DNA of 11,101 nt from Bordetella parapertussis (GTDB lineage: Bacteria; Pseudomonadota; Gammaproteobacteria; Burkholderiales; Burkholderiaceae_C): positions 1-11,101 of the forward strand of contig CALQBT020000040.1 in assembly GCA_943328885.2 (NCBI GenBank), read 5' to 3'. Of this stretch, positions 4,433 to 7,722 are shown one piece after another. A program made the position numbers and the translations under genes. The notes below the pieces were generated by a model that was given only the letters and a program-made list of their open reading frames with translations, was not told the DNA's origin and did not search any database. Position 1 is the first letter of the stretch. Every line of letters begins with the position of its first letter.

Positions 4433-6037
4433 ATGCAATTGATTGCCGGTAGATTTTCATTGTTGACCTATACGACCCTGCTGGGTCTATTATTTCTGTA
4501 TCTCGCAGTCGGAAATATTTACTGGTCGCCACTGTTTTTGATTTTTTCGGCCTGCTCCCTGCTCGGCTTCAGAGACTTGCTTCAAAAAAAGCATGCGGTG
4601 CTCGGAAACTACCCTTTGCTGGGTCGTTTCAGGTACTTTTTTGAAACCATTCGACCAGAGCTCAGACAATACTTCTGGGAATCCGATTCAGACAAGGTGC
4701 CTTATTCCAGAAATCAACGCGCCATCGTTTATCAACGCGCCAAGAGTGTGATGGCAGCGCGCCCGTTCGGCTCCATGCAGGACATGTATGTAGAGGATTT
4801 CAACTGGTTGAACCACTCGATGCAACCGACCCATATCGAGAACCAGAACTTCAGGATCCAGGTCGGAACCGGGCCCAAGCGCTACGACATGTCGCTGCTC
4901 AACATCTCGGGCACCTCGTTTGGCGCGATGTCGCCCCCCGGGATTCAGGCGCTCAGCGCCGGCGCCAAGATCGGCGGCTTTGCCCACAACACCGGCGAGG
5001 GTTCGCTGTCGCCCCACCACGAGGCGGGCGGCGGCGACACCATTTGGCAGATCGCCACGGGCTATTTCGGCTGCCGCACGGCGGACGGGAAATTCGACCG
5101 GGAAAAATTCAAAGCCAAAGCGGCCCTGGACCAGGTCAAGATGATCGAGATCAAGCTCAGCCAAGGCGCCAAGCCTGGACACGGCGGCATTCTGCTGGCC
5201 CCCAAAGTGACGCCTGAAATCGCCCGGACGCGCGGCGTCGAGGCCTACAAAGACTGCATCTCGCCGAGCCGCCATTCCGAGTTCTCGACGCCCAACGGCT
5301 TGCTCGCCTTCGCCCAGGAGCTGCGCGATCTGTCAGGCGGCAAGCCCGTTGGCATCAAGCTGTGTGTGGGTCATCCCTGGGAGTTCATCGCGATCGTCAA
5401 AGCCATGGTCGAGACCGGCAGTCATCTCGATTTCGTCACCGTGGACGGTGCCGAAGGCGGCACCGGGGCTGCGCCCGCTGAATTCACCGATCACCTGGGC
5501 AGCCCGCTGCGCGACGCCCTTGTCTTTGTCGACAACACCTTGCGCGGTGCGGGCATCCGAGACCGCGTGAAAGTCGGCGCCTCCGGCAAGATCATCAGCG
5601 CCTACGACATCATCCACCATGTCACCCTTGGTGCCGACTGGTGCAACATGGCGCGGCCCTTCATGTTCGCGCTCGGCTGCATCCAGGCGCGCAACTGCGC
5701 GTCGGGCCACTGCCCGACCGGGCTTGCCACGATGGATCCCCAACGCTACCGCGTGGTGGACGTGGCAGACCGGGCGCAACGGGTGGCCAATTTTCACAAG
5801 AACACCTTGATCGCAGTCGCTGAAATGCTCGAGTCCGCCGGCTTGCAGCACCCTGACGAGCTCACGCGCCATCACATCGAGCGCCGCCTGTCGGGCAGTC
5901 GGGTCGAACACGAAGCCGACATCTACCCGGAGGTCGAAACCAATGCGTTGAATCAAGGTGGAAAGATAGAAGACAAGCGGCTCATCAAGTACTGGAGCCG
6001 TGTCAGCGGAACGAGCTTTCAGTTGCAGGCGCATTGA
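4433..6037 (+). CDS. Membrane-anchored FMN-binding glutamate synthase family protein
   Basis: The 534-residue product matches the FMN/iron-sulfur synthase domain of glutamate synthase large subunits. Two hydrophobic segments at residues about 8-45 should anchor it in the membrane. The synthase barrel shows GEGSLSPHHEAGGGD, KLSQGAKPGHGG, a VDGAEGGTGA flavin-binding segment, and the 3Fe-4S cysteines Cys416, Cys422 and Cys427 with the spacing C-x5-C-x4-C seen in GltB. The N-terminal glutaminase domain of GltB is missing, and no GltD-like reductase is nearby. Ordinary glutamate synthesis from glutamine is therefore not supported, and the true substrate is unknown. The first 250 bases are clearly more AT-rich than the rest. 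A truncated thiamine-diphosphate enzyme gene follows after 39 nt, suggesting the two once formed an operon. Confidence 0.9.
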   Translation: MQLIAGRFSLLTYTTLLGLLFLYLAVGNIYWSPLFLIFSACSLLGFRDLLQKKHAVLGNYPLLGRFRYFFETIRPELRQYFWESDSDKVPYSRNQRAIVYQRAKSVMAARPFGSMQDMYVEDFNWLNHSMQPTHIENQNFRIQVGTGPKRYDMSLLNISGTSFGAMSPPGIQALSAGAKIGGFAHNTGEGSLSPHHEAGGGDTIWQIATGYFGCRTADGKFDREKFKAKAALDQVKMIEIKLSQGAKPGHGGILLAPKVTPEIARTRGVEAYKDCISPSRHSEFSTPNGLLAFAQELRDLSGGKPVGIKLCVGHPWEFIAIVKAMVETGSHLDFVTVDGAEGGTGAAPAEFTDHLGSPLRDALVFVDNTLRGAGIRDRVKVGASGKIISAYDIIHHVTLGADWCNMARPFMFALGCIQARNCASGHCPTGLATMDPQRYRVVDVADRAQRVANFHKNTLIAVAEMLESAGLQHPDELTRHHIERRLSGSRVEHEADIYPEVETNALNQGGKIEDKRLIKYWSRVSGTSFQLQAH

Positions 6038-6076: not shown

Positions 6077-6385
6077 ATGAATATCTCAAAAAGATCCATC
6101 AAGGGATCCGATCTCTTTGTCGAGGCGCTCGTCAACGAGGGCGTTGAATACATCTTCGCGGTCCCCGGCGAGGAAAACCTTGACATGCTGGAGTCCATCC
6201 GCGGCTCCAAGATCAAACTCATCGTGACCCGCCATGAGCAGAGCGCGGCTTTCATGGCTGCGACCTATTGCCGCCTGACCGGGCGTGCCGGTGTCTGCAT
6301 CAATCCACCGAACTTCAGCGAGGTGAAAAACCTGCGCGAGTTTGACCGCGTTGAGGCGCTGCAACTGGCCAATTGGGCGATTTGA
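6077..6385 (+). pseudogene. Acetolactate synthase-type enzyme, N-terminal fragment
   Basis: Residues 1-75 (to about 6301) read as the start of the thiamine-diphosphate-binding N-terminal domain of acetolactate synthase large subunits. They include GVEYIFAVPGEENLDMLES, the TRHEQSAAFMAATY segment with the conserved cofactor-activating glutamate (Glu54), and LTGRAGVCI. Here the family normally continues with a serine/glycine-rich GPG loop and about 470 more residues. Instead the frame enters unrelated sequence (NPPNFSEV onward) and stops at 6385. The gene has thus lost about 85% of its length by a deletion or insertion join near 6301. No remainder of the gene was found in the window. It lies 39 nt after the glutamate-synthase-like gene. 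The 102-residue product cannot be an active synthase. Confidence 0.85.
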
Positions 6386-6436
6386 CGCCTGCTATCTTGC
6401 CGGCCGATGTGCGCGCGGGGCTAGCTCAGCTCAGTC
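6302..6436. other. Unassigned junction sequence after the truncated synthase
   Basis: From the break at about 6301 to the promoter at 6437 no recognisable gene is present. The first 84 nt are read as the foreign tail of the broken synthase frame (ending in LQLANWAI). The remainder is GC-rich and includes a stretch GGGGCTAGCTCAGCTCAG at 6417-6434. I could not assign its origin; it probably came in with the neighbouring mobile modules. Confidence 0.4.
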
Positions 6437-6465
6437 TTGACGTAGTGCAACAGTTGCACTATCCT
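6437..6465 (+). promoter_or_regulatory. Putative sigma70 promoter of the DUF4160-DUF2442 operon
   Basis: TTGACG (6437-6442) and TATCCT (6460-6465) are separated by exactly 17 bp. They match the -35 and -10 consensus at 5 and 4 of 6 positions. Transcription would start near 6472, which is the A of the first ATG of the DUF4160 frame, so the mRNA would be leaderless or nearly so. The whole spacer is a perfect palindrome (separate entry), which argues for tight regulation. Confidence 0.55.
6443..6461. promoter_or_regulatory. 19-bp perfect palindrome, likely operator
   Basis: TAGTGCAACAGTTGCACTA has two 9-bp arms (TAGTGCAAC and GTTGCACTA) that are exact reverse complements around a central A at 6452. 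It fills the 17-bp promoter spacer and the first two bases of the -10 box, the classic place for a repressor dimer. The obvious candidate binder is the HTH of the DUF2442 protein encoded by the same operon, by analogy with autoregulated toxin-antitoxin operons; that link is inference. Confidence 0.65.
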
Positions 6466-6471
6466 GCATCA

Positions 6472-6689
6472 ATGCCGGTCATGCACAAGTTTTCGGCATC
6501 GCGCGTGGTGGTGACCACTTGCTTGCCCACGTCCACGTTCAGTTGCGGGATGGGCGCGAGTGCACGGTCGAGCTGGACAGCTTGACTATCGTTGGCCGAA
6601 TCGCTGCACGCGAGATCCGAGAGGAGTTGCTGTGGATCGGCTCAAACAGTGCCTGGCTGCATGAAGAATGGCGGAGCTTGAACCCATGA
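6472..6689 (+). pseudogene. DUF4160 family small protein, frameshifted near its start
   Basis: From ATG 6472 the frame reads MPVMHKF and then leaves the family. Restoring one T in the T-run at 6490-6493 joins it to the frame ending at 6689 and gives a 72-residue protein. That protein starts MPVMHKFFGIARGGDH, continues through AHVHVQLRDGRECTVELDSL, and ends HEEWRSLNP. The H-x-H motif, acidic strand and C-terminal HEEW helix fit DUF4160. After the shift, no ATG or GTG start precedes the conserved part in that frame; a TTG occurs at 6519. The sequence at the shift is not a standard slippery heptamer, so a mutation or a sequencing indel is likelier than programmed frameshifting. Its stop overlaps the next start in ATGA, the coupling expected of a two-gene module. 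DUF4160 and DUF2442 genes are often neighbours; a toxin-antitoxin-like role is conjecture. Confidence 0.7.
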
Positions 6690-7180
6690 GCGAATTTTTT
6701 CACCCCAAGCTGCTGGCCGTTGAGGCCTTGGCACCGTATCGGCTGCGCACGAGTTGGAGCACCGGCGAGGTGCTGGACGTCGATGTCGAGGCAGTGCTGC
6801 GTGGCACACCTGCGTTGACCAAGCTTCTCAAGCCAAAGGTCTTTGCCAAGGCACACCTTGCTGGCTGGGGCCACGGCATCGAATGGTTCGATGCCGAGCT
6901 GGGCGCAGACAACGTTTACGCCTGGGCCAAGGAACAAGCGGGCGAAGTCAGTCACCAGATGTTCGACACCTGGATGTATCGAAATAGCCTGTCACTGAAC
7001 ACAGCTGCCGATGCCTTGGGCATCAGCCGTCGCATGGTGAGCTACTACCGCACAGCGCACAAAGCTATTCCCCGAGCGATCTGGCTGGCTTGCCTGGGCT
7101 GGGAGGCCACCATGCCGAAGCCCAAGACCTTGCCGCTTGCGCTGCCAACGGCCAGGGAATACGCGTTGGCGCATGCTTGA
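6686..7180 (+). CDS. DUF2442 domain protein with C-terminal helix-turn-helix
   Basis: The 164-residue product has a DUF2442 domain at about residues 5-85 (FHPKLLAVEALAPYRL, STGEVLDVDVEAVLRG, GIEWFDAELGADNVYAWA). A helix-turn-helix follows at about 102-125 (LNTAADALGISRRMVSYY), then PRAIWLACLGWEA and a basic, proline-rich tail. Start 6686 is chosen over an in-frame ATG at 6668 because it overlaps the DUF4160 stop as ATGA and has GGCGGAG 9 nt upstream. The gene itself is intact even though its partner is frameshifted. As a DNA-binding protein encoded directly behind a palindromic operator, it probably represses its own operon, like an antitoxin. The function of DUF2442 itself is not established. 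An alternative is a stand-alone transcription regulator carried by a mobile element. Confidence 0.8.
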   Translation: MSEFFHPKLLAVEALAPYRLRTSWSTGEVLDVDVEAVLRGTPALTKLLKPKVFAKAHLAGWGHGIEWFDAELGADNVYAWAKEQAGEVSHQMFDTWMYRNSLSLNTAADALGISRRMVSYYRTAHKAIPRAIWLACLGWEATMPKPKTLPLALPTAREYALAHA

Positions 7181-7362
7181 TGCGTATTTCGGATCATCGT
7201 GACCGCCGAATGCTGGGGACAGCGCTTGGCGTTGATCGGCGCACGCTGGCGTACTGGTGGGACTGGTGACCAGAGCAATTCACGCAGACGCCGCTGTGGC
7301 GTGCGATGTGCGCGCAGTTCATACCGCTGTTGCCTGAAGCGCAGATCCTGGGCGAGTGCCTA
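7180..7362 (+). pseudogene. Remnant of an HTH protein resembling transposon-associated proteins
   Basis: One frame, from the ATG at 7180 that overlaps the previous stop, reads TALGVDRRTLAYWWDW, then a TGA at 7267-7269, then PEQFTQTPLWRAMCAQF and IPLLPEAQILGEC up to about 7362. Both pieces resemble one continuous segment. An HTH of the type GVDRRTLARW is followed by a W-rich helix and a TPFW...AQFMP segment, seen in short proteins that accompany insertion sequences (some annotated DUF6431). With an in-frame stop, no N-terminal zinc-ribbon region and an end running into antisense brnA, it cannot be a whole gene. The family assignment rests on recognition by eye and is tentative. Confidence 0.4.
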
Positions 7363-7647
7363 CTTCACCCGCCCCTGCTCCACCGCCTCGCGCAGCAGCG
7401 CATTCAGGCGGGTTTGCCAGCCACGCCTGCTGGCCTTGAGACCCGCAAGCACATCCGCGTCAATGCGCATGCTCAGCGTCGGCCGGCGCACGGGAACAGG
7501 TGGGCGACCTCGCAGGGGGCGCAGGCTCGCCAGTTCGGCATCAGTCAAGGGCTGGGCATCAGGGTCGCTCAAGGCCGCTGCCGTGATGGCCGCATCCTCC
7601 TGGGGTATCGGCAGGATGACCCTCCGTCAGGACCGCGTTTTAAGCAT
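7360..7647 (-). pseudogene. brnA: BrnA-type antitoxin with a stop at codon 7
   Basis: BrnA is the DNA-binding antitoxin that neutralises BrnT ribonuclease and represses the brnTA operon. From ATG at 7647 the frame reads six codons (MLKTRS), then TGA at plus-strand 7627-7629. After that comes an uninterrupted BrnA sequence: ILPIPQEDAAITAAAL, LTDAELASLRPLRGRPP, then the ribbon-helix-helix part with LSMRIDADVLAGLK and the hallmark GWQTRLNALLREAV. The ATG overlaps the end of brnT by 8 nt, the usual operon arrangement, which shows that the codon-7 stop truncates the original gene. Translation could restart downstream: an AGGAGG-like ACGGAGG follows the stop, and an in-frame TTG at 7572 would give 70 residues that keep the DNA-binding part. 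Whether any product is made is unknown. Confidence 0.75.
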
Positions 7648-7722
7648 GGTTGACATATTCGGATGCCTCTCTGTTGTTGGCCTTGCGCAGGCTGATGATT
7701 CGCCGCACCACTTTGACGGTGC
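7640..7722 (-). pseudogene. brnT: BrnT toxin, C-terminal fragment only
   Basis: The last 27 or so codons before the TAA at 7640-7642 read TVKVVRRIISLRKANNREASEYVNHA. This is the conserved C-terminal strand and R-I-I-S-x-R-K-A helix of BrnT ribonuclease toxins (about 90 residues when whole). The frame continues rightward only into the end of the sugar transferase gene, whose stop codon is at 7723. The join therefore lies at about 7722 and the catalytic N-terminal two thirds are gone. No toxin activity is expected. The antitoxin frame follows directly, overlapping by 8 nt. Confidence 0.75.

Follow-up and report, generated by a model that had tools for sequence, protein, structure and literature searches.

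Organization of the locus

The window, the whole stretch of 11,101 nucleotides that was analysed, is contig C40 of a 2.9-Mb genome that is 62% complete and consists of 467 contigs. Both PF13711 and PF10387 scored above cut-off, which gave a DUF4160 gene followed by an overlapping DUF2442 gene, preceded by a predicted promoter and a perfect palindrome (Table 1).

Table 1. Features of the DUF4160/DUF2442 locus in the window
Feature	Position	Strand	Basis
-35 hexamer TTGACG	6437..6442	+	promoter scan; TTG at identical spacing in 37/66 relatives
19-bp palindrome TAGTGCAACAGTTGCACTA, putative operator	6443..6461	.	exact symmetry; related palindrome in 66/66 complete pairs
-10 hexamer TATCCT	6460..6465	+	shares 2 bases with operator; TAnnnT in 52/66 relatives
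6-nt discriminator and ATG 6472, predicted leaderless DUF4160 start	6466..6474	+	spacing from -10
DUF4160 (predicted toxin), 5' part, 37 codons then stop	6472..6585	+	stop at 6583-6585, after frameshift
DUF4160 remainder, shifted frame	6507..6689	+	PF13711; profile A4; ends NP + stop, overlapping antitoxin start
GGAG Shine-Dalgarno-like motif, ahead of antitoxin ATG 6686	6673..6676	+	sequence; Shine-Dalgarno motif in 57/66 relatives
DUF2442-HTH, predicted antitoxin and repressor	6686..7180	+	PF10387 E 3.7e-8; 2auw/NE0471 E 1.4e-75
Helix-turn-helix (HTH), residues 104-122	6995..7051	+	predicted helices 104-111 and 115-122; Foldseek

The palindrome TAGTGCAACAGTTGCACTA consisted of two 9-bp arms around a central A and was exact, as an earlier note on this DNA had described. 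It was the sole odd palindrome with arms of at least 9 in the window. Since 200 first-order Markov draws gave an expectation of 0.105 such palindromes per window, the palindrome by itself is no more than mildly unusual. Scanning both strands of positions 6300-7300 revealed a single sigma-70-like site, TTGACG-17-TATCCT at 6437-6465, compared to a mean of 0.2 in shuffles; this is the promoter that had been proposed. The palindrome had been assigned to the promoter spacer, and the 17-bp spacer (6443-6459) indeed lies fully inside it; however, it is not confined to the spacer and runs two bases into the -10 hexamer. The ATG at 6472 sits 6 nt past the end of the -10 hexamer. A role in RNA structure or termination was rejected, as the palindrome precedes the predicted start and no terminator was reported there by the scan.

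The DUF4160 gene had been assigned to a DUF4160-DUF2442 operon, which proved not to be intact in the window. The PF13711 match extended over 6474-6686 (E 7.2e-8) and positions 16-75 of profile A4 matched at 6507-6686, but the reading frame from ATG 6472 is broken because approximately 10 bases near 6510, present in relatives L002, L004, L005, and L007, are missing from the window. An intact DUF4160 protein starting at ATG 6472 was thus ruled out by the 37-codon frame and the frameshift, and only the antitoxin and the operator can still work in the window. With the toxin dead in this genome, what remains is probably a relic locus that might still regulate itself. In the DUF4160 alignment A4 of 10 diverse members, residues H19, H23, H25, D30, and W58 were invariant besides the start residue; the resulting HxxxHxH pattern is suggestive of a metal-binding or catalytic role.

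The DUF2442-HTH gene was intact in the window and had a second in-frame ATG at 6668. It encodes a protein of 164 aa with a C-terminal HTH, whose predicted recognition helix corresponds to residues 115-122 (RRMVSYYR). The sequence match to PDB entry 2auw (NE0471) covered residues 7-163 of the 170-aa reading. An AlphaFold model of the window antitoxin built from 21 sequences was weak, with a mean pLDDT of 57 and values of 74-83 at residues 101-130, and the reading of the fold therefore rests on 2auw. Two 2auw chains were the only Foldseek matches with E <0.001. Xre/Cro-type matches (SinR, HigA, Aca2, and 434 Cro) were obtained with probabilities of 0.96-1 and E-values of 0.02-0.3 over approximately 50-85 columns. 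By sequence and model, the protein is predicted to carry an Xre/Cro-like HTH domain.

Two further gene remnants could be seen near the locus. Just upstream, at 6077-6385, lies a truncated thiamine-pyrophosphate enzyme gene (PF02776, profile positions 2-69 of 119). An intact BrnA antitoxin gene (PF14384, E 2.8e-15) occupies 7363-7722 on the minus strand and is preceded solely by an apparent short C-terminal remnant of BrnT, judged by eye, so this pair may have lost its toxin. DUF497/DUF4415 pairs are of the BrnT/BrnA type.

Conservation of the palindrome among relatives

A profile search yielded 39 loci from genome contigs and 5 from viral contigs, while 60 related genomes gave 5 more distant loci besides the window and PLSDB gave 12 records, of which 5 were examined. 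Later searches added same-family genomes and members with a variant helix. Among same-family genomes, 35/399 matched the 18-row profile A1 at E 1e-8, a count that includes HTH-less and partial genes. The final set comprised 97 distinct DUF2442-HTH genes covering at least 85% of the profile, and 66 of these were preceded by a DUF4160 gene that the profile criterion scored as complete. The operator site at each of these 66 loci was chosen by self-complementarity, with extra score for TAnnnT and TTG where the promoter elements are expected; for L083 and L150 the automatic choice missed by a few bases and was corrected manually.

At first inspection, the palindrome stood directly ahead of the DUF4160 start codon in most loci. 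In the final set, a 19-bp palindrome was present just before the toxin start in all 66 complete pairs, with 6-9 of 9 positions paired. Operator positions G5, A7, T13, C15, and C17 (5/19 positions) were invariant in 66/66. TAnnnT followed the operator in 52 of the 66, and TTG stood at the -35 position in 37. When the site was chosen without the promoter bonus in the earlier set of 51 pairs, the identical site was obtained in 49/51 by reading of the list, the misses being L015 and L083. The palindrome was also kept where antitoxin identity had fallen to approximately 40%, as on plasmids of Sphingobium and in other genomes; the operator and the pair occurred together in Sphingobium and Methylobacterium plasmids, many betaproteobacterial contigs, Halothiobacillaceae, a Mailhella bin, and viral contigs. 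This conservation in relatives gives the strongest support to the palindrome and confirms it as real. The earlier note had named the lack of related palindromes upstream of homologous operons as an outcome that would speak against its proposal; they were looked for and found in every complete pair.

Specificity of the motif for HTH-bearing pairs

PF13711 was detected in 90/300 genomes of this order, and the best-scoring matches in the 300 genomes provided 30 DUF4160 loci as HTH-less controls. In all 30, the DUF2442 partner was 80-102 aa long and lacked an HTH. The operator was found in 0/30 of these HTH-less DUF4160/DUF2442 pairs, the best match reaching 8-10 of 18 consensus positions. In the earlier set, 6-9 of 9 positions were paired in the 51 HTH pairs compared to 4-7 in 26 HTH-less pairs, so that self-complementarity alone overlaps between the two kinds. 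The promoter elements were distributed as 39/51 against 1/26 for TAnnnT and 32/51 against 0/26 for TTG.

The strict pattern TRGWGCAAYNRTTGCWCTA occurred in 4/399 same-family genomes, including that of the window, and each copy preceded a DUF4160/DUF2442-HTH locus; the reversed control pattern occurred in 1/399 (G427). The window's genome, which is 62% complete, contained one copy of the motif. The exact motif was also present in 11 viral contigs, with the pair adjoining in 5 (L094, L096, L097, L099, and L100) and not seen in the other 6 within the stretches examined. At L102 the motif lay at the contig end, and some other viral motifs without the pair looked, by eye, to be inside coding sequence.

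Recognition helix and operator sequence

Comparison of the recognition helix with the operator revealed that, in 48/49 pairs with a helix of the form SRR[M/L]..YY, both half-sites have C at operator position 6 (GTGCAA type), and that with any other helix at least one half-site has A or T at this position in 14/17. The half-sites found with the variant helices were GAGAAA for TRRTVSQY (L074, L078, L145, L146), GAGAAA/GAGCAA for SRRTVSQY (L050), GAGAAT or GGGAAT for SRRAVSQY (L153, L154), GTGTAA and GTGAAA or GTGCAA for TRRMIAHY (L083, L149, L150), GGGAAT/GGGAAA for SRRTATNY (L136), GTGAAG for TRRMVSYY (L152), and GTGAAA/GTGCAA for SRRNVI[N/S]Y (L157, L158). The exceptions were L041, with a canonical helix and one changed half-site, and L055, L159, and L161, in which C was kept with a variant helix.

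The association of helix and operator gave a Fisher p of 1.2e-10, a value that ignores relatedness and uses a helix class set after seeing the data. On a tree built without the HTH columns, just 3 helix and 5 operator changes were required. An independent-pairs test found 3 pairs, 1 of them on well-supported branches, with a mean of 0.8 changing in the same way and 0 in the opposite way; it cannot reach significance because there are too few independent changes, 6 or more being required. The co-change of helix and operator is therefore best regarded as supportive of recognition by the HTH, not as proof.

Genome G448 carried five DUF2442-HTH genes with different recognition helices, one with an internal stop (L135, L139, L142, L143, L144). 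Among four loci examined there, a DUF4160 gene lay upstream solely of L143.

Predicted leaderless start of the toxin gene

The start codon of the toxin gene was located 5-8 nt past the -10 hexamer in 54/66 complete pairs. In 7 of the 66 it lay 3 nt or less past the -10 hexamer or upstream of its end; among these 7 are L080 and L167, whose starts lie within the operator and may have been wrongly chosen. The remaining 5 had a spacing of at least 9 nt: L055 (24 nt) and L097 (26 nt) showed a leader with a Shine-Dalgarno motif, and L017, L076, and L145 had none. With a spacing of 8 nt or less, a Shine-Dalgarno motif preceded the toxin in 1/61, compared to a shuffled expectation of 3.3%. Such a motif was present before the antitoxin in 57/66 complete pairs and before the HTH-less toxins in 21/30. 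The mean anti-Shine-Dalgarno energies were -0.6 kcal/mol for toxins of HTH pairs (spacing of 8 nt or less), -7.4 kcal/mol for antitoxins, and -5.5 kcal/mol for HTH-less toxins. The deficit before the toxin is partly forced, because at a spacing of 6 the -16 to -5 region overlaps the operator and the -10 hexamer.

The toxin cistron is thus predicted to be leaderless from the -10 spacing and the absence of a Shine-Dalgarno motif, and the leaderless start at ATG 6472 suggested for the window gains support from the start positions of its relatives. Two loci departed from the usual arrangement. In L009, the region upstream of the gene is 8 nt shorter than in L011, a near relative, so that the ATG straddles the end of the -10 hexamer; the DUF4160 frame is intact. 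L084 has an open DUF4160 frame and no ATG near the expected start; by eye, an ATT 6 nt past the -10 hexamer could initiate.

Loss of the predicted toxin gene and retention of the predicted antitoxin

By the profile criterion, 31/97 HTH antitoxins were without a complete DUF4160 gene, and 28 remained after removing L081 (contig end) and L084 and L165 (open frame by eye). The operator was recognisable in 15 of these 31 loci and not in the other 16. No piece of a toxin gene could be found at L003, L008, L064, and L077; the operator was kept at all four, with a start codon in the antitoxin frame 4-8 nt past the -10 hexamer. A reverse search with the toxin profile over 190 genomes gave 17 matching places. 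When the 7 of these with an operator score of at least 13 were taken together with the window, a full HTH antitoxin lay downstream in 8/8, and the toxin was interrupted in 2 (L171 and the window). The predicted toxin thus appears to be often lost while the antitoxin is kept, as expected of a toxin-antitoxin pair; the reverse sample is small.

Relation to known systems

DUF4160/DUF2442 is already known as the described dhiTA/PEM toxin-antitoxin family. The pair of Dickeya dadantii 3937, named dhiTA, consists of a DUF4160 toxin and a DUF2442 antitoxin for which toxicity and neutralisation were shown; its promoter is repressed approximately 50% by DhiA alone and more by the DhiTA pair (PMC8198452). 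The domain pair is identical to that of the window, with the toxin gene first, and the dhiTA genes overlap by 3 bp (PMC8198452). Unlike dhiTA, the window has an HTH-fused DUF2442 and a frameshifted toxin; here DhiA is compared as a DUF2442 protein, its HTH status aside. PEM, found on Thermus thermophilus plasmids, has the identical pair and order, with a DUF4160 of 87 aa and a DUF2442 of 92 aa, and deletions show that its second ORF is needed to tolerate the first (PMC12724237). The PEM DUF2442 has the size of the HTH-less type, whereas the window antitoxin has 164 aa and a C-terminal HTH. The pair is further listed in a table of PMC12654330.

The window DUF2442-HTH protein has a full-length homologue known from structure, NE0471 of Nitrosomonas europaea (PDB 2auw), the structure reference of which is given as unpublished in PMC9410881. 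The best reading of the window protein is a DhiA-like antitoxin fused to an Xre-type HTH, with NE0471 as its solved relative. For Aca10, an HTH repressor that forms a dimer and has a minimal palindrome of 19 bp over the promoter of its own operon, NE0471 is listed as one of the nearest structures (PMC9410881). In the accessible part of PMC9410881, the paper found to name NE0471, no operator for NE0471 was seen and the term DUF2442 occurs 0 times. The anti-CRISPR-associated repressors Aca10 and Aca2 resemble the proposed arrangement as HTH dimers on a palindrome over their own promoter (PMC9410881), but differ in partner genes and operator sequence.

Leaderless toxin-antitoxin transcripts have precedents. 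In Synechocystis 6803, toxin-first loci (DUF497/DUF4415 and RelE/HTH-Xre) have a mapped transcription start at the start codon (PMC4963859); these belong to other families and their starts are mapped, whereas the starts in DUF4160/DUF2442-HTH loci are predicted. Leaderless toxin-antitoxin transcripts are common in M. tuberculosis (PMC3898074), and the toxin-antitoxin regulator gene paaR2 is leaderless (PMC8630535).

The earlier note had proposed an autoregulated module with an undescribed operator. The papers searched gave no published account of such an operator; the toxin-antitoxin family and the autoregulation of dhiTA have both been published. Words starting with 'palindrom' and 'operator' occur 0 times in the accessible text of PMC8198452. 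No paper giving a DUF2442 operator or linking DUF2442 to an HTH fusion was found in a search that covered few subscription journals or preprints.

Interpretation of the palindrome

The palindrome is very probably the operator for a dimer of the downstream DUF2442-HTH protein and is embedded in the promoter of a predicted DUF4160/DUF2442 toxin-antitoxin pair, the toxin gene of which carries a frameshift in the window. That the downstream HTH would be the repressor had been proposed before and is now favoured by the occurrence of the operator (66/66 against 0/30) and by the co-variation of helix and operator. Helix 115-122 of each HTH would read one half-site of the GTGCAAC type; once bound, the dimer would block RNA polymerase, so that the antitoxin would repress its own transcription. 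Transcription would start at the toxin ATG or no more than one or two bases from it. If intact, the toxin cistron would then be translated without a leader and the antitoxin cistron from a Shine-Dalgarno site; the antitoxin would therefore be favoured although the toxin gene comes first.

A chance palindrome in a decaying region has a negligible probability. The expectation of approximately 0.1 such palindromes per window and the broken neighbouring gene would be compatible with chance, which is nevertheless ruled out by a related motif at the same place in 66/66 complete pairs. Binding by an unlinked host regulator, with the pair merely one of its targets, is highly improbable. Such palindromes are bound by many regulators, and 6/11 viral contigs with the exact motif had no DUF2442-HTH gene in the stretch examined. 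However, a host-wide regulator is made unlikely by the genome pattern search (4/399): the motif is single in the window's genome and lies at a DUF4160/DUF2442-HTH locus in 4/4 motif-bearing genomes. Moreover, it travels with the pair across plasmids, bacterial contigs, and viral contigs, is absent with HTH-less partners (0/30), and tends to change along with the HTH.

Also unlikely, if less so, is a reading in which the two genes do not form a toxin-antitoxin system and instead encode a regulator and an unrelated small partner, with the palindrome as a simple autoregulatory operator. NE0471 is titled merely a putative DNA-binding protein, and toxicity is reported for the Dickeya and Thermus members from papers only. 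Those papers nevertheless describe DUF4160/DUF2442 pairs as toxic and neutralising (PMC8198452, PMC12724237), 31/97 HTH antitoxins (28 after exclusions) are without a complete toxin, and the 8/8 operator-bearing toxin loci keep a full antitoxin. Greater weight can be given to the possibility, still a doubtful one, that a DUF4160/DUF2442 complex and not the antitoxin alone binds the operator, which would leave the site idle in the window, where the toxin is dead. The stronger repression by the Dickeya DhiTA pair agrees with it; against it, DhiA by itself already represses by about half (PMC8198452), and the operator and promoter spacing persist in L003, L008, L064, and L077 without a toxin gene.

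Tentatively, the HTH-fused DhiA proteins may form a distinct dhiTA branch, in which the -35 hexamer, operator, -10 hexamer, and toxin start are combined in one unit of approximately 36 bp, with a simple helix code, a leaderless toxin next to a Shine-Dalgarno-bearing antitoxin, and an operator before a second small gene in some prophages. Under such a code, SRRM..YY would read GTGCAA and [S/T]RR[T/A]VSQY would read GAGAAA/T. If a distinct branch of this kind exists, conditions favouring leaderless initiation would shift the ratio toward the toxin without antitoxin proteolysis. Neither of the common families DUF4160 and DUF2442 has a biochemical function assigned to it, and among the papers found, experimental evidence for a toxin-antitoxin role goes back no further than 2021. 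For the HTH-fused branch, the present analysis supplies a putative operator, names residues that may recognise it, and predicts a leaderless toxin start that is widely conserved; it could also explain an excess of antitoxin in a toxin-first operon. The interest thus lies in the family rather than in the window locus.

Additional putative operators in relatives

Tandem operators could be observed in L070, L094, L096, and L100, where the -35 region is covered by another complete or partial palindrome that directly adjoins the first. In addition, the viral, prophage-like L094 and L096 carry a second operator copy approximately 586 nt upstream of the first: at 3046-3064 in L094, where the operator of the pair is at 2460-2478, and at 6246-6264 in L096, where it is at 5659-5677. 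The second operator of L096 is followed by TATACT and, 7 nt on, by the ATG of a small ORF; a related small ORF begins approximately 70 nt further on in L094. These two small prophage ORFs had no PHROG match. By analogy with the Aca repressors, a further phage gene in L094 and L096 may be under the control of the HTH antitoxin.
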